A program made the translations under genes and the position numbers. DNA of 64,000 nucleotides, taken from contig NZ_CP036401.1 of assembly GCF_004322755.1 (NCBI RefSeq), positions 7,254,001-7,318,000 on the forward strand. The letters are read 5' to 3'. Positions 9,024-46,525 of the stretch are shown here, one piece after another. Below the pieces are notes generated by a model. The model worked only from the letters and a program-made list of their open reading frames with translations. It did not search any database and was not told the DNA's origin. How positions within the stretch are numbered: position 1 is the first letter of the stretch; each line of letters opens with the position of its first letter. Source of the DNA: Pseudoduganella albidiflava (GTDB lineage Bacteria; Pseudomonadota; Gammaproteobacteria; Burkholderiales; Burkholderiaceae_D).

Positions 9024-12000
9024 ATGAGCATCATCCAGAGCTTTACCACGTCGGCCGACATCCAGGCGCTAAGCACCAACTTTATCGCTAACAGCCTGAC
9101 CACGGCAGACATGGAGGTCATCACGGCCGGCCAGTTGTCGTGGATGACTTCGGCTCAAATCCGTGCCCTCACGAACACCAACATCGGCGCGCTCAATTCT
9201 GTCGCGTTGCCGGGCCTGACCACGGCACAAGCCGGCGCGCTGACCAGCACGCAAGTCGCCGCGCTGACGACCAGCAACCTGAAAGTCCTGGAAACCGCCG
9301 ACCTGCGCGCGATTTCCACCAATGCGCTCAATGCCATCGGTTCGAGCCACTTCACGGCACTGACTTCGACGCAAGTGGGCTCGCTGACGACCGCGCAGAT
9401 CGCCGGCCTGGACAGCTCGATCCTGTCCGGCGGCATCACGGCCAGCCATGCGGCAGGCCTGACCACCGCCCAGGCTGCAAGCCTGGGTTCGTCGCAACTG
9501 AACACCCTGTCCACCGCCGTGCTGTCGCAACTGACGACTAGCACGATTTCGGCCATCAGGACCAGCGCGCTGGCCGGCATGACCTCGGCACAACTCGATG
9601 CGCTCACCACCACCCAGCTGGCAGCCCTGACCAGCGCGCAAGCTGGCGCGCTGACCACCGACCAAGTGAATGCGCTGTCGAGCGATGTGCTGGCTGCCCT
9701 GGAATCGCAAGACCTGAAAGCACTGAAAGCGTCGGTGATCGGCCTGCTGAACAGCACGCAGCTGAGCGGCCTGACGACCACGCAAGTAGCCAGCCTGACC
9801 ACCGCGCAGATCGCCGCGATCGATGCTGGCGTGCTCGGCTCGTCCGCCTTCAACGCCGCCGATATCGTGGCACTGACCACCACCCAGGCAGGCGCACTGA
9901 CCAGCGAACAACTGGCCGCCCTTGGTTCGGACGCCCTGCAGGCACTGGAAACGGCTGACCTGCGCGCCATCAAGACGGCAGCCATCGCCGGCCTGACCTC
10001 GACGCAATTTGCCTTCCTCGGCTCGAACCAGGTGAACGCCCTGACCAGCGCGCAAATCGCCGCCCTGGGTTCGGACTACTCGCTGACCTCGGCGCAAGTG
10101 GCCGGCATGACGACCGCGCAAGCCGCAGCCCTGACCTCGGCCCAGTTGAATGCCATCGCTACCGCCGCACTGGCACAACTGAACACGGCTGCCGTTGCCG
10201 CACTGCGCACTGCCGCGATTGCCGGCATGACCTCGGCACAACTGGATGCGTTCACCACCTCCCAGATGGCCGCCCTGACCAGCGCACAAGCTGGCGCGCT
10301 GACCACCGACCAGGTGAATGCGCTGTCGAGCGACACCCTGGCAGCCCTGGAATCGCAAGACCTGAAAGCACTGAAAGCGTCGGTAATCGGCCTGCTGACC
10401 AGCGCGCAACTGAGCGGCCTGACGACCACCCAAGTGGCCAGCCTGACCACCGCCCAGATCGCCGCGATCGATGCGGATGCCTTCGGCTCGGCTGCTTTCA
10501 ACGCCGCCGATATCGCTGCACTGACCACCACCCAGGCAGGCTCGCTGACCAGCGAACAGCTGGCCGCCCTCGGCTCCGATGCCCTGCAGGCACTGGAAAC
10601 GGCTGACCTGCGTGCGCTCAAGACCTCGGCCATCGCCGGCCTGACGTCGACCCAGTTCGCCTTCCTCGGCTCGACCCAGGTGAATGCCTTGACCAGCGCG
10701 CAAATCGCCGCCCTGGGTTCGGATTACTCGCTGACGTCGGCACAAGTGGCCGGCATGACCACCGCGCAAGCCGCGGCAATGACCTCGGCCCAGCTGAACG
10801 CCATCGCTACCGCCGTACTGGCCCAATTGAACACCGCTGCCGTCGCAGCACTGCGCACTGGCGCGATCGCCGGCATGACCTCGGCACAACTGGATGCCTT
10901 CACCACCTCGCAGATGGCCGCCCTGACCAGCGCACAAGCTGGCGCGCTGACCACCGACCAGGTGAATGCGCTGTCGAGCGATACCCTGGCAGCCCTGGAA
11001 TCGCAAGACCTGAAGGCACTGAAAGCTTCCGTGATCGGCCTGCTGACCAGCGCGCAACTGAGCGGCCTGACGACCACGCAAATCGCCAGCCTGACCACCG
11101 CCCAGATCGCCGCGATCGATGCGGATGCCTTCGGCTCGGCTGCTTTCAACGCTGCCGATATCGTCGCCCTGACCACTACCCAGGCAGGCTCGCTGACCAG
11201 CGAACAACTGGCTGCCCTCGGTTCCGATGCCCTGCAGGCACTGGAAACGGCTGACCTGCGCGCCATCAAGACCTCGGCCATCGCCGGCCTGACCTCGACC
11301 CAGTTCGCCTTCCTCGGCTCGACCCAGGTGAATGCCCTGACCAGCGCGCAGATCGCCGCCCTGGGTTCGGATTACTCGCTGACGTCGGCACAAGTCGCAG
11401 GCATGACGACGGCGCAAGCCGCGGCCCTGACCTCGGCCCAGCTGAACGCCATCGCTACCGCTACGCTGGCCCAATTGAACACCGCTGCCGTCGCCGCACT
11501 GCGCACTGCCGCGATTGCCGCCATGACCTCGGCACAACTGGATGCGTTCACCACGACGCAGATGGTTGCCCTGACCAGCGCGCAAGCCGCTGCGCTGACC
11601 ACCGACCAGGTGAACGCGCTGTCGAGCGATGTGCTGGCTGCCCTGGAATCGCAAGACCTGAAGGCCCTGAAAGCTTCCGTGATCGGTCTGCTGACCAGCG
11701 CGCAACTGAGCGGCCTGACGACCACGCAAATCGCCAGCCTGACCACCGCCCAAATCGCCGCGATCGATGCGGATGTGTTCGGCTCGGCTGCCTTCAACGC
11801 CGCCGATATCGTCGCGCTGACCACCACCCAGGCGGGCTCGCTGACCAGTGAACAGCTGGCAGCCCTCGGTTCGGACGCTCTTCAGGCGCTGGAAACGGCT
11901 GACCTGCGCGCCATCAAGACTTCGGCCATCGCCGGCCTGACCTCGACGCAGTTCGCCTTCCTCGGCTCGACCCAGGTGAATGCCCTGACCAGCGCGCAGA

Positions 12001-15000
12001 TCGCCGCCCTGGGTTCGGACTACTCGCTGACGTCGGCACAAGTCGCCGGCATGACGACGGCGCAAGCCGCGGCCCTGACCTCGACCCAGCTGAACGCCAT
12101 CGCTACCGCAACGCTGGCCCAGCTGAACACCGCTGCCGTCGCCGCACTGCGCACTGCCGCGATTGCCGCCATGACCTCGGCACAACTGGATGCGTTCACC
12201 ACGACGCAGATGGTTGCCCTGACCAGCGCGCAAGCCGCTGCGCTGACCACCGACCAGGTGAACGCGCTGTCGAGCGATGTGCTGGCAGCACTGGAATCGC
12301 AAGACCTGAAGGCCCTGAAAGCTTCCGTGATCGGCCTGCTGACCAGCGCACAGCTGAGCGGCCTGACGACCACGCAAATCGCCAGCCTGACCACCGCCCA
12401 GATCGCCGCGATCGATGCGGATGCCTTCGGCTCGGCCGCCTTCAACGCCGCCGATATCGTCGCGCTGACCACCACCCAGGCAGGCTCGCTGACCAGCGAA
12501 CAACTGGCTGCCCTCGGTTCCGATGCCCTGCAGGCACTGGAAACGGCTGACCTGCGCGCCATCAAGACCTCGGCCATCGCCGGCCTGACCTCGACCCAGT
12601 TCGCCTTCCTCGGCTCGACCCAGGTGAATGCCCTGACCAGCGCGCAGATCGCCGCCCTGGGTTCGGATTACTCGCTGACGTCGACCCAGATCGCCGGCAT
12701 GACGACCGCGCAAGCCGCGGCCCTGACCTCGACCCAGCTGAACGCCATCGCTACCGCTACGCTGGCCCAGCTGAACACTGCTGCCGTCGCCGCACTGCGC
12801 ACTGCCGCGATTGCCGCCATGACCTCGGCACAACTGGATGCGTTCACCACGACGCAGATGGTTGCCCTGACCAGCGCGCAAGCCGCTGCGCTGACCACCG
12901 ACCAGGTGAACGCGCTGTCGAGCGATGTGCTGGCAGCACTGGAATCGCAAGACCTGAAGGCCCTGAAAGCTTCCGTGATCGGTCTGCTGACCAGCGCGCA
13001 ACTGAGCGGCCTGACGACCACGCAAATCGCCAGCCTGACCACCGCCCAGATCGCCGCGATCGATGCGGATGCCTTCGGCTCGGCCGCCTTCAACGCCGCC
13101 GATATCGTTGCCCTGACCACTACCCAGGCAGGCGCGCTGACCAGCGAACAGCTGGCAGCCCTCGGTTCGGACGCTCTCCAGGCACTGGAAACGGCTGACC
13201 TGCGCGCCATCAAGACCTCGGCCATCGCCGGCCTGACGTCGACGCAGTTCGCCTTCCTCGGCTCGAACCAGGTGAATGCCCTGACCAGCGCGCAAATCGC
13301 CGCCCTGGGTTCGGACTACTCGCTGACGTCGGCGCAAGTGGCCGGCATGACCACCGCGCAAGCCGCGGCAATGACCTCGGCCCAGCTGAACGCCATCGCT
13401 ACCGCTACGCTGGCCCAGCTGAATACCGCTGCCGTCGCCGCGCTGAAGACCAGCGCCATCGCCGGCATGACCTCGGCACAGCTGGATGCGTTCACCACGT
13501 CCCAGATGGTTGCCCTGACCAGCGCGCAAGCCGCTGCGCTGACCACCGACCAGGTGAACGCGCTGTCGAGCGATGTGCTGGCGGCCCTGGAATCGCAGGA
13601 TCTCAAGGCACTGAAGGCTTCGGTCTTCGGCCTGCTGAACAGCACGCAACTGAGCGGCCTGACGACCACGCAAGTGGCCAGCCTGACCACCGCCCAGATC
13701 GCCGCGATCGATGCGGGTGCCTTCGGTTCGTCGGCCTTCAACGCCGCCGATATCGCGGCCCTGACCACCACCCAGGCAGGCGCGCTGACCAGCAGCCAGC
13801 TGGCCGCCCTCGGTTCGGATGCACTGCAGGCGCTGGAAACGGCTGACCTGCGTGCCATCAAGACGGCGGCCATCGCCGGCCTGACGTCGACGCAATTTGC
13901 CTTCCTCGGCTCGAACCAGGTGAATGCCCTGACCAGCGCGCAAATCGCCGCCCTGGGTTCGGACTACTCGCTGACTTCGGCGCAAGTGGCCGGCATGACC
14001 ACCGCGCAAGCTGCGGCAATGACCTCGGCCCAGCTGAACGCCATCGCTACCGCTACGCTGGCCCAGCTGAACACGGCTGCCGTCGCCGCGCTGAAGACCA
14101 GCGCCATCGCCGGCATGACTTCGGCACAGCTGGATGCGTTCACCACGTCCCAGATGGTTGCCCTGACCAGCGCGCAAGCCGCTGCGCTGACCACCGACCA
14201 GGTGAACGCGCTGTCGAGCGATGTGCTGGCAGCACTGGAATCGCAGGATCTGAAGGCCCTGAAGGCTTCCGTGATCGGCCTGCTGAACAGCACGCAACTG
14301 AGCGGCCTGACGACCACGCAAGTGGCAAGCCTGACCACCGCCCAGATCGCTGCGATCGATGCGGGTGCCTTCGGTTCGTCGGCCTTCAACGCCGCCGATA
14401 TCGCGGCCCTGACCACTGCCCAGGCAGGCGCGCTGACCAGCGGCCAGCTGGCAGCCCTTGGTTCCGACGCTCTCCAGGCACTGGAAACGGCCGACCTGCG
14501 TGCCATCAAGACGGCGGCCATCGCCGGCCTGACGTCGACGCAGTTCGCCTTCCTCGGCTCGACCCAGGTGAATGCCCTGACCAGCGCGCAAATCGCCGCC
14601 CTGGGTTCGGACTACTCGCTGACGTCGGCGCAAGTGGCCGGCATGACCACCGCGCAAGCCGCGGCAATGACCTCGGCCCAGCTGAACGCCATCGCTACCG
14701 CTACGCTGGCCCAGCTGAACACCGCTGCCGTCGCCGCGCTGAAGACCAGCGCCATCGCCGGCATGACTTCGGCACAACTGGATGCGTTCACCACGTCCCA
14801 GATGGTTGCCCTGACCAGCGCGCAAGCCGCTGCGCTGACCACCGACCAGGTGAACGCGCTGTCGAGCGATGTGCTGGCGGCCCTGGAATCGCAGGATCTC
14901 AAGGCGCTGAAGGCTTCGGTCTTCGGCCTGCTGAACAGCACGCAACTGAGCGGCCTGACGACCACGCAAGTGGCCAGCCTGACCACCGCCCAGATCGCCG

Positions 15001-17816
15001 CGATCGATGCGGGTGCCTTCGGTTCGTCGGCCTTCAACGCCGCCGATATCGCGGCCCTGACCACCACCCAGGCAGGCGCGCTGACCAGCGGCCAGCTGGC
15101 CGCCCTCGGTTCGGATGCACTGCAGGCACTGGAAACGGCCGACCTGCGTGCCATCAGGACGTCGGCCATCGCCGGCCTGACGTCGACGCAGTTCGCGTTC
15201 CTCGGCACCACCCAGGTGAATGCCCTGACCAGCGCGCAGATCACCGCCCTGGGTTCGGACTACTCGCTGACGTCGACCCAGATCGCCGGCATGACGACGG
15301 CGCAAGCCGCGGCGATGACCTCGGCCCAGCTGAACGCCATTGCTACCGCTGTGCTGGCCCAGCTGAACACCGCTGCCGTCGCCGCGCTGAAGACCAGCGC
15401 CATCGCCGGCATGACCTCGGCACAACTGGATGCGTTCACCACGTCCCAGATGGTTGCCCTGACCAGCGCCCAAGCTGCCGCACTGACCACCGACCAGGTG
15501 AACGCGCTGTCGAGCGATGTGCTGGCCGCCCTGGAATCGCAGGATCTCAAGGCACTGAAGGCTTCGGTCTTCGGCCTGCTGAACAGCACGCAACTGAGCG
15601 GCCTGACGACCACGCAAGTGGCCAGCCTGACCACCGCCCAGATCGCTGCGATCGATGCGGGTGCCTTCGGTTCGTCGGCCTTCAACGCCGCCGATATCGT
15701 GGCCCTGACCACTGCCCAGGCAGGCGCGCTGACCAGCGGCCAGCTGGCAGCCCTGGGCTCCGATGCTCTCCAGGCACTGGAAACGGCCGACCTGCGTGCG
15801 CTGAAGACGGCGGCCATCGCCGGCCTGACGTCGACGCAGTTCGCGTTCCTCGGCACGAACCAGGTGAACGCCCTGAGCAGCGCGCAAATCGCTGCCATGG
15901 GTGCGGACTACTCGCTGACGTCGACCCAGATCGCCGGCATGTCGACCGCCCAGGCTGCCGTGATGACGTCGGCCCAGCTGAACGCCATCGCTACCGCTAC
16001 GCTGGCGCAAATGAACACCGCCGCGATCGCCGCCCTGAGGACCAATGCGATTGCGGGCATGACGTCGGCACAGCTGGATGCGTTCACCACGACGCAGATG
16101 GTTGCCCTGACCAGCGCGCAAGCTGCCGCGCTGACCACCAACCAGGCGAACGCGCTGTCGAGCGATGTCCTGGCGGCCCTGGAATCGCAGGACCTGAAGG
16201 CCCTGAAGGCTTCGATGTTCGGCCTGCTGACCAGCGCGCAACTGAGCGGCCTGACGACCACGCAAGTGGCCAGCCTGACCACCGCCCAGATCGCTGCGAT
16301 CGATGCGGGTGCCTTCGGCTCGTCGGCCTTCAACGCCGCCGATATCGCGGCACTGACCACTGCCCAGGCAGGCGCGCTGACCAGCAGCCAGGTTGCGGCG
16401 CTGGGTTCGGATGCCCTGCAGGCACTGGAAACGGCTGACCTGCGTGCACTGCGGACGGCAGCCATCGCCGGCCTGACCTCGACCCAGGTCACGGCGCTGA
16501 CGAGTGCGCAGTTCGGCGTCCTGACCAGCGCCCAGCTGGGTGGCCTGCAAGCGGCGACGCTGAGCGCGGCAGGTACCTTGCAGCTGGCTGGCCTGACCAC
16601 CGGCCAGGCAGCGGCCCTGTCGAGCAACCAGGTGCTGTCGCTGTCGTCGGCTGCACTGAGCGCACTGAGCACCGGTGCCATCGCTGCCCTGCGTACTACG
16701 GCGATCGCCGGCCTGAGCTCCGCCCAGTTCGACGTCTTCACCAGTACCCAGGTTGCCGCGCTGACCTCGCGCCAGGCCTCGGCGATCGTGGTGTCGCAGC
16801 TGAACGCGTTCTCCAGCGATATCCTGCAAGCACTGGAAACGCAAGACCTGCGTGCCCTGAGCACCGGCGTGATCGCAGCGCTGACCACTTCGCAAGTGTC
16901 GGCAATGACGAACTCGCAGGTAACGGCCCTGAGCACCAACCAGATCGTGGCACTGTCCACCAACTGGAATGCGTGGAACACCACGCAGCTGGCAGCGCTG
17001 ACGCCGGCACAACTGGGTCAGCTGACGCCGGTGGTGCTGGACCTCGATGGCAACGGCATCAGCACGGTCAGCGTGACCGCCGGTACCCGGTTCGACCTGG
17101 ATGCCGATGGCACGCAAGACCTGACCGGCTGGACCGGCAAGGGCGATGGCCTGCTGGTGCTGGATCGTAACGGCGACGGCACGATCAACGACGGCGGCGA
17201 ACTGTTCGGCAGCGCAACCACCCTGTCCGACGGCAGCAAGGCGGAAGATGGTTATGCGGCAATGCGTGACCTGGACAGCAACGGTGACGGCAAGCTGGAC
17301 GCCAGCGATACCGCCTTCGGCAAGCTGAGCGTGTGGGAAGACGGCAACGGCAACGGCATCACCGATGCCGGCGAGCTGACCAGCCTGGCGGACCGTGGCA
17401 TCGTGTCGCTGGACCTGAATGCCCAGACCACGCAGATCGACAGCAACGGCAACACGATCGGCCTGACGTCCGGCTTCACCACGGAAGATGGCCAGTCGCA
17501 TGACATGGCCGACGTGTGGTTCAGCACCACGGCAGCCGCGGCCACCAACCTGCGCAGCAATGTCAGCGGGCTGGCCCAGTCGATGTCGGCGTTCAACCAG
17601 GCAGCGGCACAACCGGTGACTGCGCCGGGTTCGCTGAAGCTGGACGGTGGCACCACCACCAACGCCCTGGCGGTCGGCATGGCCGATGCGATGCGCAACT
17701 TCGATGCCAACGGCAAACCGGTCGGTGCGCCGACCGCGATGGCGGGCAGCGAGGCGCTGGAGCTGAAGGCCCTGAACCGCGGCCAGTCGCAAGGCTACCT
17801 GGCGGCACCGAAGTAA
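9024..17816 (+). CDS. Giant type I secreted octad-repeat surface protein with Ca-binding C-terminus
   Basis: 2930 residues, no cysteine seen, dominated by Ala, Leu, Thr, Ser and Gln. The body is a chain of 8-residue units of the form L-T-S-A-Q-V-x-A, grouped into eleven 216-residue repeats (residues about 136-2510). The N-terminus (MSIIQSFTTSADIQAL) has no Sec signal. After residue 2670 the composition changes to an EF-hand/dockerin-like calcium region with DLDGNG, DLDADG, DRNGDG, DSNGDG and EDGNGNG. This domain is common at the C-termini of type I secretion substrates. The transporter and adaptor genes follow directly. ATG at 9024 has a good site (GGGAG). A role as S-layer, adhesin or matrix protein is inferred; secretion by the adjacent system is well supported. 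Confidence 0.88.
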   Translation: MSIIQSFTTSADIQALSTNFIANSLTTADMEVITAGQLSWMTSAQIRALTNTNIGALNSVALPGLTTAQAGALTSTQVAALTTSNLKVLETADLRAISTNALNAIGSSHFTALTSTQVGSLTTAQIAGLDSSILSGGITASHAAGLTTAQAASLGSSQLNTLSTAVLSQLTTSTISAIRTSALAGMTSAQLDALTTTQLAALTSAQAGALTTDQVNALSSDVLAALESQDLKALKASVIGLLNSTQLSGLTTTQVASLTTAQIAAIDAGVLGSSAFNAADIVALTTTQAGALTSEQLAALGSDALQALETADLRAIKTAAIAGLTSTQFAFLGSNQVNALTSAQIAALGSDYSLTSAQVAGMTTAQAAALTSAQLNAIATAALAQLNTAAVAALRTAAIAGMTSAQLDAFTTSQMAALTSAQAGALTTDQVNALSSDTLAALESQDLKALKASVIGLLTSAQLSGLTTTQVASLTTAQIAAIDADAFGSAAFNAADIAALTTTQAGSLTSEQLAALGSDALQALETADLRALKTSAIAGLTSTQFAFLGSTQVNALTSAQIAALGSDYSLTSAQVAGMTTAQAAAMTSAQLNAIATAVLAQLNTAAVAALRTGAIAGMTSAQLDAFTTSQMAALTSAQAGALTTDQVNALSSDTLAALESQDLKALKASVIGLLTSAQLSGLTTTQIASLTTAQIAAIDADAFGSAAFNAADIVALTTTQAGSLTSEQLAALGSDALQALETADLRAIKTSAIAGLTSTQFAFLGSTQVNALTSAQIAALGSDYSLTSAQVAGMTTAQAAALTSAQLNAIATATLAQLNTAAVAALRTAAIAAMTSAQLDAFTTTQMVALTSAQAAALTTDQVNALSSDVLAALESQDLKALKASVIGLLTSAQLSGLTTTQIASLTTAQIAAIDADVFGSAAFNAADIVALTTTQAGSLTSEQLAALGSDALQALETADLRAIKTSAIAGLTSTQFAFLGSTQVNALTSAQIAALGSDYSLTSAQVAGMTTAQAAALTSTQLNAIATATLAQLNTAAVAALRTAAIAAMTSAQLDAFTTTQMVALTSAQAAALTTDQVNALSSDVLAALESQDLKALKASVIGLLTSAQLSGLTTTQIASLTTAQIAAIDADAFGSAAFNAADIVALTTTQAGSLTSEQLAALGSDALQALETADLRAIKTSAIAGLTSTQFAFLGSTQVNALTSAQIAALGSDYSLTSTQIAGMTTAQAAALTSTQLNAIATATLAQLNTAAVAALRTAAIAAMTSAQLDAFTTTQMVALTSAQAAALTTDQVNALSSDVLAALESQDLKALKASVIGLLTSAQLSGLTTTQIASLTTAQIAAIDADAFGSAAFNAADIVALTTTQAGALTSEQLAALGSDALQALETADLRAIKTSAIAGLTSTQFAFLGSNQVNALTSAQIAALGSDYSLTSAQVAGMTTAQAAAMTSAQLNAIATATLAQLNTAAVAALKTSAIAGMTSAQLDAFTTSQMVALTSAQAAALTTDQVNALSSDVLAALESQDLKALKASVFGLLNSTQLSGLTTTQVASLTTAQIAAIDAGAFGSSAFNAADIAALTTTQAGALTSSQLAALGSDALQALETADLRAIKTAAIAGLTSTQFAFLGSNQVNALTSAQIAALGSDYSLTSAQVAGMTTAQAAAMTSAQLNAIATATLAQLNTAAVAALKTSAIAGMTSAQLDAFTTSQMVALTSAQAAALTTDQVNALSSDVLAALESQDLKALKASVIGLLNSTQLSGLTTTQVASLTTAQIAAIDAGAFGSSAFNAADIAALTTAQAGALTSGQLAALGSDALQALETADLRAIKTAAIAGLTSTQFAFLGSTQVNALTSAQIAALGSDYSLTSAQVAGMTTAQAAAMTSAQLNAIATATLAQLNTAAVAALKTSAIAGMTSAQLDAFTTSQMVALTSAQAAALTTDQVNALSSDVLAALESQDLKALKASVFGLLNSTQLSGLTTTQVASLTTAQIAAIDAGAFGSSAFNAADIAALTTTQAGALTSGQLAALGSDALQALETADLRAIRTSAIAGLTSTQFAFLGTTQVNALTSAQITALGSDYSLTSTQIAGMTTAQAAAMTSAQLNAIATAVLAQLNTAAVAALKTSAIAGMTSAQLDAFTTSQMVALTSAQAAALTTDQVNALSSDVLAALESQDLKALKASVFGLLNSTQLSGLTTTQVASLTTAQIAAIDAGAFGSSAFNAADIVALTTAQAGALTSGQLAALGSDALQALETADLRALKTAAIAGLTSTQFAFLGTNQVNALSSAQIAAMGADYSLTSTQIAGMSTAQAAVMTSAQLNAIATATLAQMNTAAIAALRTNAIAGMTSAQLDAFTTTQMVALTSAQAAALTTNQANALSSDVLAALESQDLKALKASMFGLLTSAQLSGLTTTQVASLTTAQIAAIDAGAFGSSAFNAADIAALTTAQAGALTSSQVAALGSDALQALETADLRALRTAAIAGLTSTQVTALTSAQFGVLTSAQLGGLQAATLSAAGTLQLAGLTTGQAAALSSNQVLSLSSAALSALSTGAIAALRTTAIAGLSSAQFDVFTSTQVAALTSRQASAIVVSQLNAFSSDILQALETQDLRALSTGVIAALTTSQVSAMTNSQVTALSTNQIVALSTNWNAWNTTQLAALTPAQLGQLTPVVLDLDGNGISTVSVTAGTRFDLDADGTQDLTGWTGKGDGLLVLDRNGDGTINDGGELFGSATTLSDGSKAEDGYAAMRDLDSNGDGKLDASDTAFGKLSVWEDGNGNGITDAGELTSLADRGIVSLDLNAQTTQIDSNGNTIGLTSGFTTEDGQSHDMADVWFSTTAAAATNLRSNVSGLAQSMSAFNQAAAQPVTAPGSLKLDGGTTTNALAVGMADAMRNFDANGKPVGAPTAMAGSEALELKALNRGQSQGYLAAPK
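9428..16555. repeat. 648-bp in-frame tandem repeat array, eleven units
   Basis: Unit boundaries recur exactly every 648 bp at 9428, 10076, 10724, 11372, 12020, 12668, 13316, 13964, 14612, 15260 and 15908. Each unit encodes 216 residues, that is 27 octads (25 of eight, one of ten, one of six). The first and last units are degenerate and the inner ones nearly identical. Two subtypes occur in blocks: units 2-6 carry LLTSAQ with GSAAFN, units 1 and 7-10 carry LLNSTQ with GSSAFN. Unit 11 is a hybrid. This block pattern suggests expansion by unequal crossover plus gene conversion. Confidence 0.95.
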
Positions 17817-17852
17817 AGGCAAGTACCGGAGGGCCGCAAGGCTCTCCTCGCG

Positions 17853-17887: not shown

Positions 17888-17992
17888 CGTTACCCCCGCA
17901 CGGACCGGTAATACTGCGCCGGTCCTGCAAGCCCTCCTGTAGAATCGCGACAGGTAAATTTGCTCGCCACAGGCGCTCCCATACCTCCACGC

Positions 17993-20131
17993 ATGCAATC
18001 AAAATTCCCCCATACGACCGTCCAGTGTCTGGCGGCCATCGCGCAGCATCATGGCTTGCCGGTCAATCCCGAGCGGTTGATCGACGAGTTCGCTCTTGGC
18101 GCCGAAGAGCCCGGCAATAACCTGATCATCCGCATGGCTGCCGACATCGGCATGAAGGCCAAAGCCTCACGGTTGAGCTGGCAGGGGTTGACCGCCCAGA
18201 CCGGTGTATTCCCCCTGATGGCGCGGCTGAGCGGTGGCCAGATGGTGATCATCGTGGGTGTGCGGGCCGAGCAGGAAGAAGTGGCGGTGCTCAATCCCGC
18301 CTCCGGCAATCCGGGGGTGGTCATGGTCAAGCGTGCCGACTTCAGCCAGCGCTGGGACGGCGAAGTCATCTTCATCAAGCGGCAGCACCGGCTGAGCGAC
18401 CCCAACCAGCCGTTCGGCCTGAGCTGGTTCCTGCCAGAAATCCTGAAGCAGAAGGCGGCCTTCCGCGACATCTTCATCGCCGCGATCGCCATGCACATCC
18501 TGTCGCTGGCCTCGCCGATGTTCTTCCAGCTGGTGATCGACAAGGTGCTGACGCACCAGAGCATCACCACGCTGTGGGTGCTGGCGATCGGCATCGTGAT
18601 GGCCCTGCTGTTCGAGGCCGTGCTCGGCTATGTGCGCCAGATGCTGACGCTGGCGGCCTCCAACAAGATCGACATGCGGCTGACGCGGCGCACCTTCGCC
18701 CAGCTGCTGGCATTGCCGATCGATTTCTTTGAAACGCAGACGGCCGGCATCATCACGCGCCACATGCAGCAGCTGGAAAAGATCCGCAGTTTCCTCACCG
18801 GCCGCCTGTTCATGACGGGCCTGGACCTGATCGCGCTGGTGATCTTCCTGCCGGTGCTGTTCTCGTATTCGTTCAAGCTGGCCATGCTGGTGCTGGGCTT
18901 CACGCTGCTGATCGCGCTGGTGGTCATGCTCATGGTGCCGCCGTTCCAGCGGCGCCTGCAGGAACTGTACAAGGCCGAGGGCATGCGCCAGGCCATGCTG
19001 GTGGAAACCATCCACGGCATGCGCACGGTGAAGGCGCTGGCGATCGAGCCGAACCAGCGCCGCGACTGGGACCAGCGCTCCGCCGAATCGATCACCATGC
19101 ACTACCGGGTCGGCCGCGTGTCGATCGCCGGCAACACGATCACGGACTTCCTCGGCAAGCTGTTGCCGGTGACGATCATCGTCATCGGTGCCCAGAGCGT
19201 GTTCGACCAGACGCTGACGGTGGGTGCGCTGATCGCCTTCCAGATGCTGTCGCAGCGTGTCACGCAGCCGCTGATCGCCCTCGTCGGCCTGGTCAACGAA
19301 TACCAGGAAACCGCGCTGTCCGTGAAGATGCTGGGCGAAGTGATGAACCGGGCGCCGGAAGGCCGCGCCGGCGCCGGCGGCCTGCGCCCGATCCTGAACG
19401 GCGAGATCAAGTTCGAGGACGTGACATTCCGCTATCCGGGCGGTCAGACCAACGCGCTCGACCGCACCGCCTTCACGATCAAGCCCGGCACCGTGGTCGG
19501 CATCGTCGGCCGCAGCGGCTCGGGCAAGACCACGCTGACCAAGGTCATCCAGGGCCTGTACGCGGTGCAGGACGGCATCGTGCGCTTCGACGGCATCGAT
19601 GCCCGCGAGATCGAGCTGTCGCACCTGCGCCGCCAGATCGGCGTGGTATTGCAGGAGAATTTCCTGTTCCGCGGCACCGTGCGCGAAAACCTCACCGTCA
19701 CCAAGCCGGACGCCACGTTCGAGGAAGTGATGGAAGCGGTGGCCGCGGCCGGCGCCGACGAGTTCATCGAGCGGCTGCCGCAGGGCTACGATACCTTGCT
19801 GGAAGAGAATGCGTCGAACCTGTCCGGCGGCCAGAAGCAGCGGCTGTCGATCGCCCGTTCGCTGCTGGCCAAGCCGCGCATCCTGATCCTGGACGAAGCG
19901 GCCAGCGCGCTGGATCCGGAAAGCGAAGCGATCTTCATCAAGAACCTGTCGAAGATCGCCATCGGCCGCACGGTCGTCATGATCTCGCACCGGCTCTCCA
20001 CGCTCGTCAACGCCGATTCCATCCTGGTCATGCAGCGCGGCCGGCTGGTCGATTCGGGCACCCATGAGCAACTGCTTCAAAGCAGCGATACATACCAGCA
20101 CTTATGGAACCAGCAAACAAGTCACCTTTGA
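17993..20131 (+). CDS. Type I secretion ABC transporter, HlyB/LapB type
   Basis: An inner-membrane ATPase of 712 residues that powers one-step export through a type I system. Residues 1-130 form a C39-like domain in which the catalytic cysteine position is not cysteine (HTTVQCLAAIAQHHG). It is therefore a substrate-binding, non-cleaving domain as in HlyB. The transmembrane domain spans about 150-430. The nucleotide-binding domain has Walker A GRSGSGKTT (about 505), signature LSGGQKQR (about 609), Walker B ILILDEAAS (about 630) and switch histidine ISHRLS (about 664). ATG at 17993 fits the family N-terminus better than a TTG 33 bp upstream. The adaptor gene overlaps its end by 28 bp. The obvious substrate is the giant protein just upstream. 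Confidence 0.95.
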   Translation: MQSKFPHTTVQCLAAIAQHHGLPVNPERLIDEFALGAEEPGNNLIIRMAADIGMKAKASRLSWQGLTAQTGVFPLMARLSGGQMVIIVGVRAEQEEVAVLNPASGNPGVVMVKRADFSQRWDGEVIFIKRQHRLSDPNQPFGLSWFLPEILKQKAAFRDIFIAAIAMHILSLASPMFFQLVIDKVLTHQSITTLWVLAIGIVMALLFEAVLGYVRQMLTLAASNKIDMRLTRRTFAQLLALPIDFFETQTAGIITRHMQQLEKIRSFLTGRLFMTGLDLIALVIFLPVLFSYSFKLAMLVLGFTLLIALVVMLMVPPFQRRLQELYKAEGMRQAMLVETIHGMRTVKALAIEPNQRRDWDQRSAESITMHYRVGRVSIAGNTITDFLGKLLPVTIIVIGAQSVFDQTLTVGALIAFQMLSQRVTQPLIALVGLVNEYQETALSVKMLGEVMNRAPEGRAGAGGLRPILNGEIKFEDVTFRYPGGQTNALDRTAFTIKPGTVVGIVGRSGSGKTTLTKVIQGLYAVQDGIVRFDGIDAREIELSHLRRQIGVVLQENFLFRGTVRENLTVTKPDATFEEVMEAVAAAGADEFIERLPQGYDTLLEENASNLSGGQKQRLSIARSLLAKPRILILDEAASALDPESEAIFIKNLSKIAIGRTVVMISHRLSTLVNADSILVMQRGRLVDSGTHEQLLQSSDTYQHLWNQQTSHL

Positions 20132-21447
20132 AGCAGGACAGGACCGAGATCGAGTACCTGCCGGATGCGGACGCGATCGAACGCGATCCGCTGCCGCCCT
20201 ACCTGCGCATGACCATCTGGCTGCTGGTCGCGGCGCTGGCCGTGTTCCTCGCGTGGGCCGCGCTGTCGAGCGTGGAGAAAGTGGTGGTGGCGCATGGCCG
20301 CCTGGTCACTCCGGAATCGAACATCGTGGTGCAACCGCTCGATACCTCGATCGTGCAGCGCATCGGCGTGCGCCCGGGCCAGGTGGTCCGCAAAGGCGAG
20401 CTGCTGGCGACGCTCGATCCCACCTTCGCACAGGCCGACGATGCCCAGCTGCGGGTGCGGCTGCTCAGCCTGGAAACCCAGGTCAGGCGCCTGGAAGCGG
20501 AACTCAATGGCGCGGCCGGCGTAGCCGGTGCCAGCGATGCCGATGCCGCGCTGCAGGCGCGCCTGGCCGCCGAGCGCCAGGCCAACTACGATGCGCAGCG
20601 CACCAAGCTGGACGAGAACATCGCCCGCCTGAAAGCCAGTATCGAGACCAACCGGCGCGATGAGCAGGTGCTGGTCGAACGCGTCAAGTCGCTGCGCGAA
20701 ATCGAGTCGATGCAGCAAAGCCTGATCGAAGCGAACTTCGGCGCGCGCATGCACCTGCTCGAAGCGCGCGACCGCCGGCTGGAAGTCGAGCGCCAGGCCA
20801 CGCTGTCGCGCAACAAGGATATCGAGATGTCGCGCGAGCTGGCCTCCGCCCAGGCCGAGCGTGCCGCGTTCGACAAGGGCTGGCGGCAGAAATCGCTGGA
20901 AGACCTGCTGAGCGCCTCGCGGGAACGCGACGGCCTGCGCGAGCAGCTGGCCAAGGCCGAGAAACGGCGCGAGCTGGTGCAGTTGCGCGCCCCCGCCGAT
21001 GCGGTAGTGCTCGAGGTGGGCAAGGTATCGCAGGGGTCCGTGGTGCAGGGCGCCGAGCAGATGTTCGTGCTGGTGCCGCTGAACGCGCCCCTGGAGGCGG
21101 AAGTGGAGATCGACTCGATGGACGTGGGCCAGCTCAAGCGGGGCGATCCGGTGCACGTGAAGTTCGACGCGTTTCCCTTCCAGAAGCACGGCGCCCTCGA
21201 CGGGCAGATCCGCACCATCAGCCAGGATTCGTTCAAGCGCGAACAGGTCGCGGCGGGCGAGGGCACCAACGCCTTCTACGTGGGCCGCGTGACCTTCAAG
21301 GGCCAGCTGCGCAACATGCCCACCGGCATACGGCTATTGCCCGGCATGACCGTCAGTGCCGAAATCGTGGTGGGCAAGCGCTCCGTGCTGTCCTACATCG
21401 TGTGGCCGCTGACGCGGGCGCTGGACGAATCGATCCGCGAGCCCTGA
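20104..21447 (+). CDS. HlyD-family type I secretion adaptor (membrane fusion protein)
   Basis: A 447-residue periplasmic adaptor linking the ABC transporter to a TolC-type outer-membrane channel. It has a short cytoplasmic N-terminus and one transmembrane helix near residues 36-58 (LLVAALAVFLAWAALSS). A split biotinyl-lipoyl domain begins VVVAHGRLVTPESN, followed by a long helical coiled-coil hairpin (about 100-290) and a beta-barrel domain. The C-terminus, LSYIVWPLTRALDESIREP, is typical of HlyD/LapC proteins. The start overlaps the transporter gene by 28 bp, implying coupled translation. No TolC gene is present nearby, so the channel must be encoded elsewhere. Confidence 0.95.
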   Translation: MEPANKSPLKQDRTEIEYLPDADAIERDPLPPYLRMTIWLLVAALAVFLAWAALSSVEKVVVAHGRLVTPESNIVVQPLDTSIVQRIGVRPGQVVRKGELLATLDPTFAQADDAQLRVRLLSLETQVRRLEAELNGAAGVAGASDADAALQARLAAERQANYDAQRTKLDENIARLKASIETNRRDEQVLVERVKSLREIESMQQSLIEANFGARMHLLEARDRRLEVERQATLSRNKDIEMSRELASAQAERAAFDKGWRQKSLEDLLSASRERDGLREQLAKAEKRRELVQLRAPADAVVLEVGKVSQGSVVQGAEQMFVLVPLNAPLEAEVEIDSMDVGQLKRGDPVHVKFDAFPFQKHGALDGQIRTISQDSFKREQVAAGEGTNAFYVGRVTFKGQLRNMPTGIRLLPGMTVSAEIVVGKRSVLSYIVWPLTRALDESIREP

Positions 21448-21498: not shown

Positions 21499-24285
21499 TC
21501 ACGGGGCGAGCAGGATCGTGTTCGCCTGCCGCACCACGGCGTGGATGCGTTCCAGCTCGTAGGCGCCGCGCTTGACTTCTTCGTGCGTGGCCGACAGGAA
21601 CATCAGCGCCGACACCAGCTTGCTGGTCAGCGATTCATGCAGCAGGGCGCGGTTGCGCGCATACACATCCTGCTGGTGCGCGTCGCACAGCAACTGCAGC
21701 CATTCCACCTGCGCCGCGATGCGGCCGTCCAGGCCTTTCGATGCCGGCACCGCGGCATAGTTCAGCGCCTGCGGCAGGTACACGCAGTCGGCCTGCGCCA
21801 GCACCGCCAGCCAGGTGGCCACTTCCGGCAACGCGGTATAGTCGCGGCCCAGGAAATGCCCGAAGCGCGGCCCGGCCAGCGCCTTGCGGAACAGCACGCC
21901 GCCAGGGCCGCCGGCGATATTCTGGCTGTTGGCCAGCATCAGGTCGCCCAGCGAGCGGCCGCCGATGCGTGTCTCGTTCGGGTACAGCGGGCCGTTGCCC
22001 TGTGCCGGCGCCAGGTAGTTGCCCTGTGCATCCATCTGCTGGGTCCACGAGGCAACCATGCCCACGTTCGGCTGGGTCGCCATGTAGCCCATCATCACCG
22101 CCAGCTTCTGCGGGTGGAACAGGTCGCCCGGCGGCAGCAGCGCGATGAATTCGCCCTGGGCGAACCGGTAGGCGTTCTGCAGGTTGGCAGCCGCGTCGAG
22201 GCCGGGCGCGCGCAGGTAGCGCAGCTGCGCGCTGCGGCCCAGCAGCGGTTCCAGCGCTTCGCCGAGCGCTTCGCCGCGCGACGCATCGCTGATGACGATT
22301 TCCAGCCGCGGCCAGCCCTGCTGGGCCAGCGCCGTGCCCAGGCTTTGCAGCACCGCCTCGCTGCCGCAGTCCTCGCCGGCGGCGATCAGCACGGAGACCA
22401 GCGGCAGGCGCACCGTGGCCGGTGCCGCTTCGGCGGCTGGCGCCGCCACGCGCCGGCCCAGCGCCACGCGCTCGTACGCGTCTTCCAGGTCGCGTGCGAA
22501 GCGGGGCGTATCGAACAGCGCGCAGCTCAGCCGGTTGTCCACCAGCTGCCGCTTCATCGCTTCCACGCGGGCCCGGTCGCCGGCCAGGCTGACCGCCTTT
22601 TCCTCGTAGTCGCGCAGGTTGAAGGTGACCAGTTCCGGCAGGTCGGCCGCGCGCAGCAGGCTGCCCGCCATGCGCGACGAGAACGTGCGGTCCGAGCAGG
22701 TCAGCACCGGCAGGCCGGCCCACAGCGCGTCGCTGGCCGTGGTGCCGCCGTTGAACGGGATCGTATCGAGGAACAGGTCGGCGACCTGGAAGCGCGCCAG
22801 GTAATCCGCCGGCAGCGCGCGGTCGGCGAAGTGCAGCCGGCTGGCGGGCACGCCGGCCAGCTCGGCCTGGCGCGCCAGGTTGGTGCGCACCTGTTCGTTG
22901 TCGCCCACCACCCACAGCACGCTGTCCGGCACGCGCCGCAGGATCGCCATCCAGGTCTGGAAGATCTCCTGGGTGATCTTGAAGTTGTTGTTGAAGGCGC
23001 AGAACACGAACGCCTCTTCCGGCAGGCCGCAGCCGGCGCGGGTGGGGCGCGCGCCGATCCGGCGTTCGCGGTCGTTGACCTGGAAGGTGCGCGGCATGTG
23101 CAGCGGCTTCTCGGTAAAGTAGGGCTCCAGCTCGGGCGGCAGCACGAACGGATCGGCGATCACGTAGTCGACCTGGGGCAGCGCCGTGGTACCCGGCAGG
23201 CCCAGCCACGTGATCTGTACCGGCGCCGGCCGGTACGACAGGATGTTGGGCCGCGCGCCCAGCGTCAGGCCGTGCAGGTCGACCAGGATGTCGATCTCGT
23301 GCGAGCGGATCAGCCGCGCCGCTTCTTCGTCAGTCAGGTCATGGATGCGCACATGCTGGTCGAAGCCGGCCACCACGCGGGCGCGCAGCGGCGAGCCATC
23401 GTCGTTGCTCCAGTCGAAGCCGAACACTTCGACGCGGGCGCGGTCGTGCAAGCCATACAGCTCGGCGGTGAGGATCGATACCGCATGCGAGCAAAAGTCT
23501 GAAGACAGGTAACCCACGCGCAGGCGCGTGTGTTCGTAGCCGGCAGGGCCGGACAGCTGCGGCACATCCTGGATCACCTTGTCGCGCACGAAACGCTGGG
23601 CCGAGGCCAGCTGCATGGCCGGATCGCCCGAACCGCTCAGCATGCCCAGCGCCGACGTGGCGGCCATCAGCTCGGCCTCGGGCACGCCGCTGGCGCTGCT
23701 GCTGAACACGGGCCACTTGCACTGCTTCTGGCGCAGGTGCACCCAGTGCGTGATCACGTCCGGCTGGCGCGCATCGAGGTGCAGGCTGCGCGTGAGGGCA
23801 TCCTCGGCGGCCGGGTAATCGCGCTGGATCTCCAGCAGCCGGCCGATATTGTTCAGTGCCTGGACCAGGAACGCGCGCTCCGCCGCGTTGGCCGGATCCG
23901 CATAGCCGACCACCACGCGCCACGCATCGAGCGCCTCCTGCGGGCGCTTGGTCCGTTCCAGCAGCGTGCCCAGGTTGAGGTGCCCTTCGGAAAAGCGCGG
24001 ATGGTGCGCGATGGCGCTGCGGTAGGCCGACTCCGCCCCGGCGCTGTCGCCGCGTGCATTGAGCGCGATCGCCAGGTTGAACCAGGCGGCATAGGCCAGC
24101 GGCGACGGCGGCCCGGCCAGCCAGTCGCGATACAGCTGGATCGCCGTGTCCTGGTGCCCGTTCTGGTGCAGCTCGTGGGTCACCTGGAACAGGTCGACCA
24201 GCGGCAGCGTGCCCTGGGCAACGCCACGGCGGGCCTGTTCCAGGGCCCTGGCGAGTTCGGAGGAGATGCTTGCTGGATTTGCCAT
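21499..24285 (-). CDS. TPR-GT41 (SPINDLY/OGT-type) glycosyltransferase with C-terminal GT2-like domain
   Basis: A cytoplasmic 928-residue protein. The first 180 residues are TPR repeats (AYAAWFNLAIALNARGD, SEGHLNLGTLLERTKRPQEA). A GT41 catalytic region follows, about 250-620, with RVGYLSSDFCSHAV, ILVDLHGLTLGARPNIL, QITWLGLPGTT, FCAFNNNFKI and PFNGGTTASDALWAGLPVL. The last 280 residues look like a GT-A/GT2 domain (LVSVLIAAGED, FIALLPPGDLFHPQKL). GT41 enzymes transfer GlcNAc or another sugar to protein Ser, Thr or Asn. The gene converges on the type I secretion operon and is divergent from pseB. A likely acceptor is a surface protein such as flagellin or the adjacent giant protein. Start at 24285 (MANPASISSELA) was preferred; no clear ribosome binding site. 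Confidence 0.88.
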   Translation of the reverse strand: MANPASISSELARALEQARRGVAQGTLPLVDLFQVTHELHQNGHQDTAIQLYRDWLAGPPSPLAYAAWFNLAIALNARGDSAGAESAYRSAIAHHPRFSEGHLNLGTLLERTKRPQEALDAWRVVVGYADPANAAERAFLVQALNNIGRLLEIQRDYPAAEDALTRSLHLDARQPDVITHWVHLRQKQCKWPVFSSSASGVPEAELMAATSALGMLSGSGDPAMQLASAQRFVRDKVIQDVPQLSGPAGYEHTRLRVGYLSSDFCSHAVSILTAELYGLHDRARVEVFGFDWSNDDGSPLRARVVAGFDQHVRIHDLTDEEAARLIRSHEIDILVDLHGLTLGARPNILSYRPAPVQITWLGLPGTTALPQVDYVIADPFVLPPELEPYFTEKPLHMPRTFQVNDRERRIGARPTRAGCGLPEEAFVFCAFNNNFKITQEIFQTWMAILRRVPDSVLWVVGDNEQVRTNLARQAELAGVPASRLHFADRALPADYLARFQVADLFLDTIPFNGGTTASDALWAGLPVLTCSDRTFSSRMAGSLLRAADLPELVTFNLRDYEEKAVSLAGDRARVEAMKRQLVDNRLSCALFDTPRFARDLEDAYERVALGRRVAAPAAEAAPATVRLPLVSVLIAAGEDCGSEAVLQSLGTALAQQGWPRLEIVISDASRGEALGEALEPLLGRSAQLRYLRAPGLDAAANLQNAYRFAQGEFIALLPPGDLFHPQKLAVMMGYMATQPNVGMVASWTQQMDAQGNYLAPAQGNGPLYPNETRIGGRSLGDLMLANSQNIAGGPGGVLFRKALAGPRFGHFLGRDYTALPEVATWLAVLAQADCVYLPQALNYAAVPASKGLDGRIAAQVEWLQLLCDAHQQDVYARNRALLHESLTSKLVSALMFLSATHEEVKRGAYELERIHAVVRQANTILLAP

Positions 24286-24418
24286 GATCGACGGTCGAAG
24301 TTGGGAAAGGAACCCGCGCCATTCTAGCGATAAAAGACCCGGCATGGCGGCGCGGCACCGCGGCACGCGGTGGTCATCGCATTCGCGGATTCGCCCGCGC
24401 TTTCACCAGCGCATCGGC

Positions 24419-24636: not shown

Positions 24637-26827
<2,191 letters not shown>

Positions 26828-26831
<4 letters not shown>

Positions 26832-27580
26832 GCCTGTCCGCGAAGAAACTGGCTGCGACGAAACTGGCCGTGACGAAACTGGCCGTGACGAAACTGGCCG
26901 TGATTCCGGCGCGGGGCGGCAGCAAGCGTATTCCGCGCAAGAACATCAAGCCGTTCGCCGGCCAGCCGATGATCGCGTACGCCATCGGCGCGGCGCGCGA
27001 CAGCGGCGTGTTCGACCGCATCATCGTCTCCACCGACGACGCCGAGATCGCCACCGTCGCGCGCGCCCATGGCGCCGAAGTGCCGTTCCTGCGCGCGCCC
27101 GAACTGGCCGACGACCATGCCGGCACCGTGCCCGTGATCGCCGATGCGATCCGGCGCTGCACGGAAGCCGGCTGGCATGCGGACCTGGTGTGCTGCATCT
27201 ATCCGGGCGTGCCGCTGCTGCAGCCGCAGGATTTGCGCGATGCGCTGGCGCTGCTGGACGACGCCGCCGCCGCGTATGCCTTCACCGTCAGCCCGTTCCC
27301 CGCCGCCGTGCAGCGCGCCCTGAAGCGCGGCGCCGGCGGCGCCATGGCGCCATTCTTTCCGGAGCACGTGCACACCCGCAGCCAGGACCTGGAACCCGGC
27401 TATTACGATGCCGGCCAGTTCTACTGGGGCCGCAGCGGCGCGTGGCTGGCCGGCCAGTCGCCGCACCAGCAGGGCCGCGGCCTGGTGATCCCGGCGTGGC
27501 GCGCCATCGATATCGACACGCCCGAGGACTGGCAACGCGCCGAGCTGGCCTTCCGTGCCGCGCAACAGCCGGCGCGCTGA
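26828..27580 (+). CDS. pseF: Pseudaminic acid cytidylyltransferase with repeat-extended N-terminus
   Basis: PseF activates pseudaminic acid with CTP to CMP-pseudaminate. The 250-residue protein has the cytidylyltransferase signature AVIPARGGSKRIPRKNIKPF and the downstream YDAGQFYWG and IDIDTPEDW motifs of the family. Unusually, the signature begins near residue 24. The segment before it encodes K-L-A-V-T repeats from a 15-bp tandem tract, so the extra residues come from duplication of the first codons. The start ATG overlaps the pseC stop (ATGA). The gene ends in TGATG with pseG. Confidence 0.94.
26843..26902. repeat. In-frame 15-bp tandem repeat at the 5' end of pseF
   Basis: Four consecutive 15-bp units, the last three identical (ACGAAACTGGCCGTG) and the first degenerate (AAGAAACTGGCTGCG). 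They encode K-L-A-V-T repeats ahead of the catalytic signature. Because the period is a multiple of three, copy changes would keep the frame. Confidence 0.95.
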
Positions 27581-29091
27581 TGGACATCGTCTTCCGCGCC
27601 GACGCCTCGCTGCAGATCGGCAGCGGCCACCTGATGCGCTGCCTGACGCTGGCGGACCAGCTGCGCGCCGAGGGCGCGCGCACCACGTTCGTCTGCCGTG
27701 AACATGCGGGCCACCTGTGCGACCTGGTCGTCGCGCGCGGCCATGCCGTGGCGCGGCTGCCCGTCCATGCCACGCAGGCCGGCGGCGCGGCGTACGACCA
27801 GTGGCTGGGCGCACCCTGGCAGCAGGACGCCGCCGAGACGGCCGCCGCGCTGCCCGGCCGCCCTGACTGGCTGGTGGCCGACCACTACGCGATCGATGCG
27901 CGCTGGGAGGCGGCATTGCGGCCCGCCGTGGATCGCCTGATGGTGATCGACGACCTGGCCGACCGCCCGCACGACTGCGACCTGCTGCTCGACCAGAACC
28001 TGGCGGCGCGCATGGAACGGCGCTACGACGGCCTGCTGCCCTCGGACGCGGTGCTGCTGGCCGGGCCGCATTACGCGCTGCTGCGCCCCGAGTTCGCCGC
28101 CGCCCGTGCCGCCCTGCGCGTGCGCGACGGCCAGGTGCGCCGGCTGTTCCTCTTCATCGGCGGCGCCGACGCCGACGACTACACCGGCCAGGCGCTGCGC
28201 GAGGCTGCGCGGCACCCCGGCCTGGCCACCGACGTGGTGGTCGGCGGCGCCTATCCGCACCATGAGCAGCTGGCGCGCCACTGCGCGGCATTGCCGGGAA
28301 CGCGGCTGCATCGCGGCGTGGACAACATGGCCGAGCTGATGGCGGCAGCCGACCTGGCCATCGGCGCGGGCGGCGGCGCCATGTGGGAGCGTGCCTGCGT
28401 CGGCCTGCCGAGCCTGGTGATCGCCGTGGCGGCGAACCAGCAGGCTGGCTGCGCGGCCATGGCGCGGCAGGGTCATGTGCTGTACCTGGGTGAAGGCCCG
28501 GCCGCATTGGCCACGCTGCCGGCGGCCCTGCAACTGGCGCTGGCCGCGCCGGAACTGCTGGCCCACATGGAACAGGGCAGCCTGGCGCTGGTCGATGGCC
28601 GCGGCGCGGGGCGCGTGGCGCGGCAGATGCGCCAGCTCGGCAACGCCGCGCAGCTGGGCCTGCGCCCGGCCACGGCCGGCGACTGCGACCCCGTCTGGCA
28701 CTGGCGCAATGCCGAGACCGTGCGGCGCTTTTCCACCAGCAGCGCCGTCATCCCGCTGGAGCAGCACCGCGCCTGGTTCGCCGCCACCCTGGCCGACCCG
28801 GCACGGCAGCTGCTCGTCGGCGAAATCGGCGGGCGCGCCGCCGGTATCCTGCGTTATGATCGTGCCGATGCGAAGGCGACCGTATCGGTTTACCTGACGC
28901 CCGATTTCATCGGCCAGGGCATCGGCGCGGCGCTCATTGCCGCCGGCAGCGACTGGGTGCGCCAGCACTGGCCACAAGTGGCTACCATCGAGGCTGTGGT
29001 ACTGCCCGGCAATCGCGCTTCGGCCCGCGCATTCGAAGCCGCCGGCTATGCCGAACAACTGAACATTCTTGCACTACGCATCCGGGACTAA
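27580..29091 (+). CDS. pseG: PseG-PseH fusion: UDP-sugar hydrolase plus N-acetyltransferase
   Basis: The 503-residue protein joins two steps of pseudaminate synthesis. Residues 1-340 are PseG, which removes UDP from UDP-2,4-diacetamido-trideoxy-altrose. It starts MDIVFRADASLQIGSGHLMR and has the catalytic His17 in GSGHLMRC, plus the GT-B-like motif LAIGAGGGAMWERACVGLPS. Residues about 350-503 are a GNAT acetyltransferase of PseH type (LGLRPATAGDCDPVW to FEAAGYAEQLNILALRIRD, with the acetyl-CoA loop IGQGIGAAL). PseH acetylates the C4 amine before PseG acts, so the fusion covers consecutive steps. No separate pseH exists in the operon. ATG at 27580 overlaps the pseF stop by one base. Confidence 0.93.
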   Translation: MDIVFRADASLQIGSGHLMRCLTLADQLRAEGARTTFVCREHAGHLCDLVVARGHAVARLPVHATQAGGAAYDQWLGAPWQQDAAETAAALPGRPDWLVADHYAIDARWEAALRPAVDRLMVIDDLADRPHDCDLLLDQNLAARMERRYDGLLPSDAVLLAGPHYALLRPEFAAARAALRVRDGQVRRLFLFIGGADADDYTGQALREAARHPGLATDVVVGGAYPHHEQLARHCAALPGTRLHRGVDNMAELMAAADLAIGAGGGAMWERACVGLPSLVIAVAANQQAGCAAMARQGHVLYLGEGPAALATLPAALQLALAAPELLAHMEQGSLALVDGRGAGRVARQMRQLGNAAQLGLRPATAGDCDPVWHWRNAETVRRFSTSSAVIPLEQHRAWFAATLADPARQLLVGEIGGRAAGILRYDRADAKATVSVYLTPDFIGQGIGAALIAAGSDWVRQHWPQVATIEAVVLPGNRASARAFEAAGYAEQLNILALRIRD

Positions 29092-29093
29092 CC

Positions 29094-30145: not shown

Positions 30146-30760
30146 ATGCAACGCATCTGTATCCTCGACTATGGCTCCGGCAACGTGAAGTCGGTCTACA
30201 ACCTGTTTTCCGAAGTGTCGGGCAACGTGACGGTCTCGAACGCGCCGGCCGACATCGAAGCGGCCAGCCACATCGTGCTGCCCGGCGTGGGCGCATTCGG
30301 CGCGGCCATGCGCCGCATCGGCGAAACGCTGCCGCTGGACGTGCTGGAGCGCGTGGTGCGCGAGCAGGGCAAGCCCTTCCTCGGCATCTGCGTGGGCATG
30401 CAGGTGCTGGCCGACACCGGCCACGAGTTCGGCGAAACACCCGGCCTGGGCTGGATCGGCGGCACGGTGCGCCAGCTGCAGCCGGGCACGTTCCCGTTGC
30501 CGCACATCGGCTGGAACAATATCGACATCCGTCAGCCCAGCCCGCTGCTGGAAGGCCTGGACCACGCGCCGGACTTCTACTACGTGCACAGTTTCGCCTT
30601 CGATGCGGCCGACCCCGCCGACGTGCTGGCCACCACCGACTACGGCCAGCAATTCACCGGCGTGGTCGGGCGCGGCAACATCTACGGCGTGCAGTTCCAT
30701 CCCGAAAAAAGCCAGCGCGCCGGCATGCGGCTGGTGAAGAACTTCCTGGCGATCCCATGA
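30146..30760 (+). CDS. hisH: HisH-like glutamine amidotransferase of a sugar-amidation system
   Basis: A class I glutaminase domain protein of 204 residues. The catalytic cysteine is in FLGICVGMQVL (about residue 82) and the His-Glu pair in QFHPEKSQRAG, so the triad is intact. In histidine synthesis HisH feeds ammonia to HisF. In surface-glycan loci HisH/HisF homologs instead supply ammonia to a WbpG/PseA-type amidotransferase, which makes acetamidino groups. The second role fits here: the partner hisF overlaps by ATGA, pseA follows, and no other his gene is present. The ribosome binding site AAGGA lies 7 nt upstream. Confidence 0.9.
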   Translation: MQRICILDYGSGNVKSVYNLFSEVSGNVTVSNAPADIEAASHIVLPGVGAFGAAMRRIGETLPLDVLERVVREQGKPFLGICVGMQVLADTGHEFGETPGLGWIGGTVRQLQPGTFPLPHIGWNNIDIRQPSPLLEGLDHAPDFYYVHSFAFDAADPADVLATTDYGQQFTGVVGRGNIYGVQFHPEKSQRAGMRLVKNFLAIP

Positions 30761-31566: not shown

Positions 31567-31576
31567 GGAGAGCGAC

Positions 31577-41014: not shown

Positions 41015-41025
41015 GTTGGCTGCTC

Positions 41026-46362: not shown

Positions 46363-46525
46363 CTGTGGTGGTGTCTCTCGAGTCGGCGGTAAGTGAAGCG
46401 TAATCGTACTCGGGAGACGGTGGCGCCAGCGTGGATTTCGTGGTGTTTTGGCAACTTCGCCGTCCTGCGGCGCGGCTCCGCCGAACTCGGTAAGATGAGG
46501 TACCCCGACGCATACCGATATCGCC

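Follow-up and report, generated by a model that had tools for sequence, protein, structure and literature searches.

Background

Serine-rich repeat glycoproteins of Gram-positives are Ser/Thr-rich, repetitive surface glycoproteins that come with their own glycosyltransferases and exporter. Among systems with a GT41 enzyme, HMW1 and HMW1C pair a large exoprotein with an adjoining cytoplasmic glycosyltransferase, and HMW1 is reported to be two-partner secreted and N-glycosylated. FrpC carries a self-processing module whose cleavage site is Asp414-Pro415 (PMC7078468). For repeats of eight residues (octads) the closest entries are PF20080 (ALTTAQ repeat, ALTTAQ_rpt), itself the name for a 38-position repeat, and PDB 9zem (HeliScrew4), a solved 120-residue chain of similar octads. 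Among open-licence PMC articles we found neither a paper on the ALTTAQ repeat or HeliScrew4 nor one joining type I secretion, O-GlcNAc transferase or O-linked glycosylation, and a repeat protein, a result that holds for that collection and does not show absence from print.

Here, we compare these systems with a locus in Pseudoduganella albidiflava, using a 64,000-nucleotide stretch of its genome (hereafter the window) in which a giant octad-repeat protein is followed by an exporter and by genes for sugar transfer and sugar-nucleotide synthesis (Table 1). We read its product as a type I-secreted alpha-solenoid rod with O-linked sugar close to where each helix begins, and give this reading a probability of roughly 0.6. 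Computation supports the repeat, its predicted fold, its period and its gene linkage; new here are the 3.4-octad turn, by which the nesting of the repeats can be explained, and the repeated association of an octad giant with an OGT-like enzyme and a type I exporter. If our reading is right, the protein would resemble the serine-rich repeat glycoproteins, with a different repeat, exporter and enzymes. With HMW1/HMW1C it shares the large exoprotein adjoining a GT41 enzyme, but here the exporter is of type I and the enzyme bears TPRs. A two-partner glycoadhesin of the HMW1/HMW1C type would have many sequons, but only 6 N-x-S/T sequons occur in 2668 residues of the octad protein, against 660 Ser/Thr.

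Table 1. Features of the locus, in window coordinates.
Feature	Position	Strand	Basis
Octad-repeat giant protein, 2930 aa	9024..17816	+	Open ORF, PF20080, octad segmentation
Octad chain, residues 25-2668	9096..17027	+	Segmentation; PF20080 in 84 stretches
Ten near-identical 648-bp units, 27 octads each	9819..16298	+	Unit comparison
FrpC self-processing-module-like domain, residues 2669-2833, Thr-Pro replacing Asp-Pro	17028..17522	+	Sequence and fold match, alignment
C-terminal tail, low model confidence; putative type I signal site	17523..17813	+	AlphaFold2 confidence
ABC exporter with C39-like domain, HlyB type	17960..20131	+	Profile matches
HlyD-type periplasmic adaptor	20104..21447	+	Profile matches
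TPR + GT41 + GT2 glycosyltransferase, OGT-like	21499..24366	-	Profiles, solved relatives
PseB, PseC, PseF, PseG (fused to PseH-like part below cut-off), PseI	24679..30137	+	NCBIfam
WbuZ/HisF-like protein (below cut-off) and WbuX amidotransferase (over cut-off)	30757..32779	+	Profiles
NAD-dependent epimerase/dehydratase and RmlC-type epimerase	35560..36995	-	Profiles
RfbH-like dehydratase	37772..39241	-	Profile
Glucose-1-phosphate cytidylyltransferase (RfbF)	40241..41029	-	Profile
Second TPR + GT41 glycosyltransferase	43858..46611	-	Profile

The octad repeat, its family and its predicted fold

The octad reading frame is open, with a Shine-Dalgarno-like AGGGAG immediately 5' of its ATG. Residue identity within the protein is 0.30 at a lag of 8, 0.25 at 16 and 0.76 at 216, against 0.07-0.14 at other lags below 20. 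Segmentation yields 331 octads from residue 25 to residue 2667, with 307 of the 330 steps exactly 8 residues long, eleven of 10 residues and ten of 6, so that one 10- and one 6-residue step per unit give 25 x 8 + 10 + 6 = 216 residues, or 27 octads. These measures bear out both the nested 8- and 216-residue repeats of a 2930-residue protein and the 27 octads per unit proposed in a preliminary description made from the sequence. Its count of eleven 648-bp units holds in part: ten consecutive units share 85-97% DNA and 87-99% protein identity, whereas an eleventh in-phase interval opens with the same landmark octad yet is only 32-35% identical to them in protein, and the figure of eleven therefore counts landmarks, not full copies. 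Synonymous differences outnumber nonsynonymous ones in 9 of 9 neighboring pairs among the ten units, which suggests selection on the protein sequence of the repeat units. An antisense open frame of 2977 codons (9069-18002, minus strand) spans the whole repeat, probably as a side effect of the repetitive, GC-rich coding sequence, and tandem 15-bp units of GTCATTGGCCCCGTA lie upstream of the octad gene at 8163-8244.

The octads match PF20080 at 1451 bits over 84 stretches (curated cut-off, 26.4 bits), and 9zem matches the octad protein with an E value of 7e-11; because of these two matches the earlier view that the octads belong to no named family falls. HeliScrew4 consists of the same kind of octads but is shorter, with mostly Pro at position 3, and what is added here beyond the PF20080 name is the period, the predicted fold, and the linkage to an exporter and a glycosyltransferase. 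Of 60 genomes searched, 35 carry the repeat, namely that of the window and 34 of the 35 further members of the genus, against 0 of 24 from the order's other families. A contig search gave 32 named loci with the repeat, mostly in Burkholderiales but also in Azospirillum, Nitrospirillum, Methylobacter and a Geobacteraceae MAG. Tandem pairs of octad genes are seen in 10 of the 32 (L023, L025, L028, L029, L031, L033, L035, L037, L041, L044).

AlphaFold2, which may over-regularise repeats, returned a chain of short helices both for residues 1-620 (mean pLDDT 90.8) and for the last octads (blocks mostly above 90), each octad forming one helix of 5-6 residues. The helix begins at octad position 3, which makes position 2 the N-cap. 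The models thus favor the proposed short-helix solenoid over an RTX beta-roll and agree with the proposed Thr/Ser capping box, while the supposed two-turn helices shrink to about one and a half turns, still one per octad. The octad L-T-[ST]-x-Q-[ILV]-x-A would accordingly be predicted to fold as a single very short alpha-helix in which hydrophobic residues at positions 1 and 6 would make the core, position 2 would cap the helix, and Gln or Asp at position 5 would close the capping box.

A proposed superhelical period of about 3.4 octads

Long repeats in relatives are not always of 216 residues, the leading lags being 136, 192, 219, 272, 355, 491 and 574 residues, among others. Expressed in octads, 17, 24, 27 and 44 are the commonest best lags, followed closely by 10, 34 and 51. 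Family-wide, most long units span 10, 17, 24, 27 or 44 octads, and all of these values lie close to an integer multiple of 3.4. Averaged over 35 proteins, the hydropathy spectrum peaks at 0.294 cycles per octad, a period of 3.40. The best octad lag falls within the set {7, 10, 17, 24, 27, 34, 41, 44, 51, 58} in 81 of 95 octad ORFs or fragments, against a mean of 16.5 and a maximum of 27 when octads were shuffled within each protein. By group, it does so in 33 of 34 named relatives and in the window protein, P0001, the 35 proteins that had been seen when the set was defined, and in 42 of 54 genus fragments and 5 of 6 fragments from a family of another class in the same phylum (f62); since these last two came later they are the fairer test, with no group fully independent owing to shared ancestry.

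We read this, from lags and spectra, as a superhelix that turns once every 3.4 octads or so (27 residues), by which the 27-octad unit of the window would make about 8 turns. The nested periods can then be explained, because unit lengths sit near whole numbers of turns. Counting against this, P0001 itself has its spectral maxima away from 0.294, at 0.408 for hydropathy and 0.186 for charge; within its unit, however, lags of 17 and 10 octads score best. The chain would be a long screw-like rod, and units held near whole turns (10, 17, 24 and 27 octads for 3, 5, 7 and 8 turns) would bring the same residues round to one face. If true, this would be a natural 8-residue alpha-solenoid with a superhelical geometry readable from sequence alone.

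Octad Ser/Thr as candidate sugar acceptors

The preliminary description stressed Ser/Thr at octad position 2, but position 3 carries the conserved Ser/Thr more often, in 289 of 330 octads of the window protein. Over 8917 octads from 39 proteins, Ser/Thr makes up 87.7% of position 3 (98-100% in several proteins) and 64.2% of the N-cap position 2. The OGT-like GT41 enzymes encoded nearby would add sugar to these residues in the cytoplasm, here chiefly at position 3. Three related GT41-free genomes (family f66, G263 among them) provide a contrast that is small and drawn from a single genus: in their 31-32 octads, position 3 is Pro in 55-59% and Ser/Thr in just 3-13%, while position 2 is still Ser/Thr in 66-72% and position 5 still Gln in 69-77%. 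This points to position 3 as a candidate acceptor. Pro-type chains of this kind (31-32 octads, LTPEQIAA-like, HeliScrew4-like in sequence) lie within proteins of 3.5-4.2 kilo-residues in f66 (L104, L101, L102).

Conservation at position 3 could instead serve only to pack the screw or to form its hydrogen bonds. Helices often begin with Ser/Thr, and position 2 is more variable than position 3, which would fit such a role. Yet both HeliScrew4 and the f66 octads have mostly Pro at position 3 with positions 2 and 5 retained, and the Pro in HeliScrew4 implies that an octad repeat seemingly has no need of Ser/Thr there, which leaves packing as an unlikely sole cause, though one with some weight. The acceptor position, if any, would vary, since several f62 proteins have Ser/Thr at positions 2 to 4 and the Azospirillum and Nitrospirillum octads have it led by positions 2 and 4.

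Linkage of octad genes to GT41 glycosyltransferases

The GT41 protein of 21499-24366, encoded convergently with the HlyD gene, scores 269.2 bits against a GT41 cut-off of 25, with TPR hits; its best solved relatives are XcOGT (2jlb, E 1.5e-85) and human OGT, with SPINDLY as another. Across 40 genus genomes, counting that of the window, GT41 was found in 38 and the C-terminal module of the octad protein in 39; G009 had neither and G006 (83% complete) the module only. In all 38 GT41-bearing genomes a listed GT41 and a listed module hit are no more than 25 kb apart, in 28 no more than 5 kb, and 68 of the 76 GT41 genes in the genus lie within 25 kb of such a hit. For seven single-contig genomes the chance of such proximity was 1-11% per genome, and it was seen in 7 of 7. 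Of 37 genus regions, which had been fetched because GT41 and module lay close, 28 have GT41 directly after the octad gene and in the same orientation.

Beyond the genus, octads and GT41 occur together in 9 of the 32 named loci, and GT41 is present somewhere in 30 of 31 of their genomes. All 11 octad genomes listed for f62 have GT41, genomes there without a match being mostly unlisted. Five f62 genomes were inspected: the octad gene, HlyD, ABC and GT41 stand side by side in four, and the fifth has the octad gene with GT41. As an FrpC-like module was not detected in the inspected f62 genomes, the GT41 linkage follows the octads. At L097 1251-12596, also in f62, a 3781-residue open frame with several GT41 domains is oriented divergently to an octad gene.

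Among genes that might supply the sugar donor, PseB, PseC, PseF, PseG and PseI (NCBIfam), WbuX, RfbF, RfbH and an RmlC-type epimerase are all over their own cut-offs in the window, but the pseudaminic part is not general: of 40 genus genomes just 4 have PseI-type NeuB, two of them next to octads (the window's and G005), whereas RfbF- and RfbH-like genes are present in 17 and 12 of the 37 regions.

These same genes allow for an octad rod that is type I-secreted and unglycosylated, with GT41 and the sugar genes serving a separate glycan (lipopolysaccharide or capsule) or other proteins and merely sharing a cell-surface island. The Pse, WbuX, RfbF and RfbH families also serve O-antigens, and many genomes carry GT41 without octads: in the phylum, GT41 is present in 85 of 249 genomes, most lacking a PF20080 match, which counts against a glycosylation linkage. 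However, the solved relatives of the window GT41 are OGT-type protein glycosyltransferases, the enzyme gene directly follows the octad gene in most of the genus regions, and the linkage recurs in f62, where the sugar-nucleotide genes of the window were undetected in the fetched stretches. Flagellin, the other usual target considered, lies about 256 kb away if the contig is circular and 1.1 Mb away otherwise. On this evidence we consider an unglycosylated rod improbable, somewhat more so than packing as the cause of the conserved position 3.

For the glycosylated rod, we infer export by this transporter, glycosylation with its site and donor, and a surface role. More tentatively, and with doubt outweighing confidence, this may be a widespread and so far unrecognised protein glycosylation of Gram-negatives, in which OGT-type GT41 enzymes would coat almost all octads of giant, type I-secreted alpha-screws close to where the helix starts and the 3.4-octad turn would arrange the sugars in helical stripes, as a counterpart of the serine-rich repeat glycoproteins. 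If true, a repeat family that has little beyond a name would gain a function, and bacterial OGT-like enzymes a concrete candidate substrate.

Probable export and the C-terminal module

HlyB/HlyD-type genes lie directly downstream of the octad gene, the adaptor scoring 314.8 against a TIGR01843 cut-off of 208.65 and the ABC protein 641.2 with TIGR01846, under its 725.55. The same pair occurs in 13 of the 37 genus regions, with 75-82% identity for ABC and 58-68% for HlyD. The first 40 residues of the octad protein hold no strongly hydrophobic stretch, so a Sec signal is unlikely, and gene context argues for export by the adjacent system, through which the exoprotein would leave already sugar-coated. 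Type I export might be impeded if the chain were already folded or carried sugar, which counts against the glycosylated rod.

The preliminary description likened the C-terminus to secretion-linked calcium-binding sequence; its fold is of the FrpC self-processing type, not RTX, and an RTX protein was rejected because the nonapeptide GGxGxD has 0 matches in the octad protein. Residues 2669-2833 match the FrpC module in sequence (E 1e-35) and fold (6sjw, TMt 0.82), while octads replace the other parts of FrpC and Asp-Pro is missing. An FrpC-like clip-and-link protein, which cuts itself at this module and cross-links to neighbors, would account for both matches but is highly improbable, because FrpC is cut at Asp-Pro (PMC7078468) and all 27 aligned proteins have Ser or Thr in front of that invariant Pro (Thr in the window protein), so that autocleavage is not expected. 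The module is probably a calcium-binding domain that would fold outside after export, leaving the rod to act as a surface or matrix glycoprotein. The same genome holds a second FrpC-module-like domain, 43% identical, in a 1282-residue open frame (L002, G000:C1:3652943-3653482).
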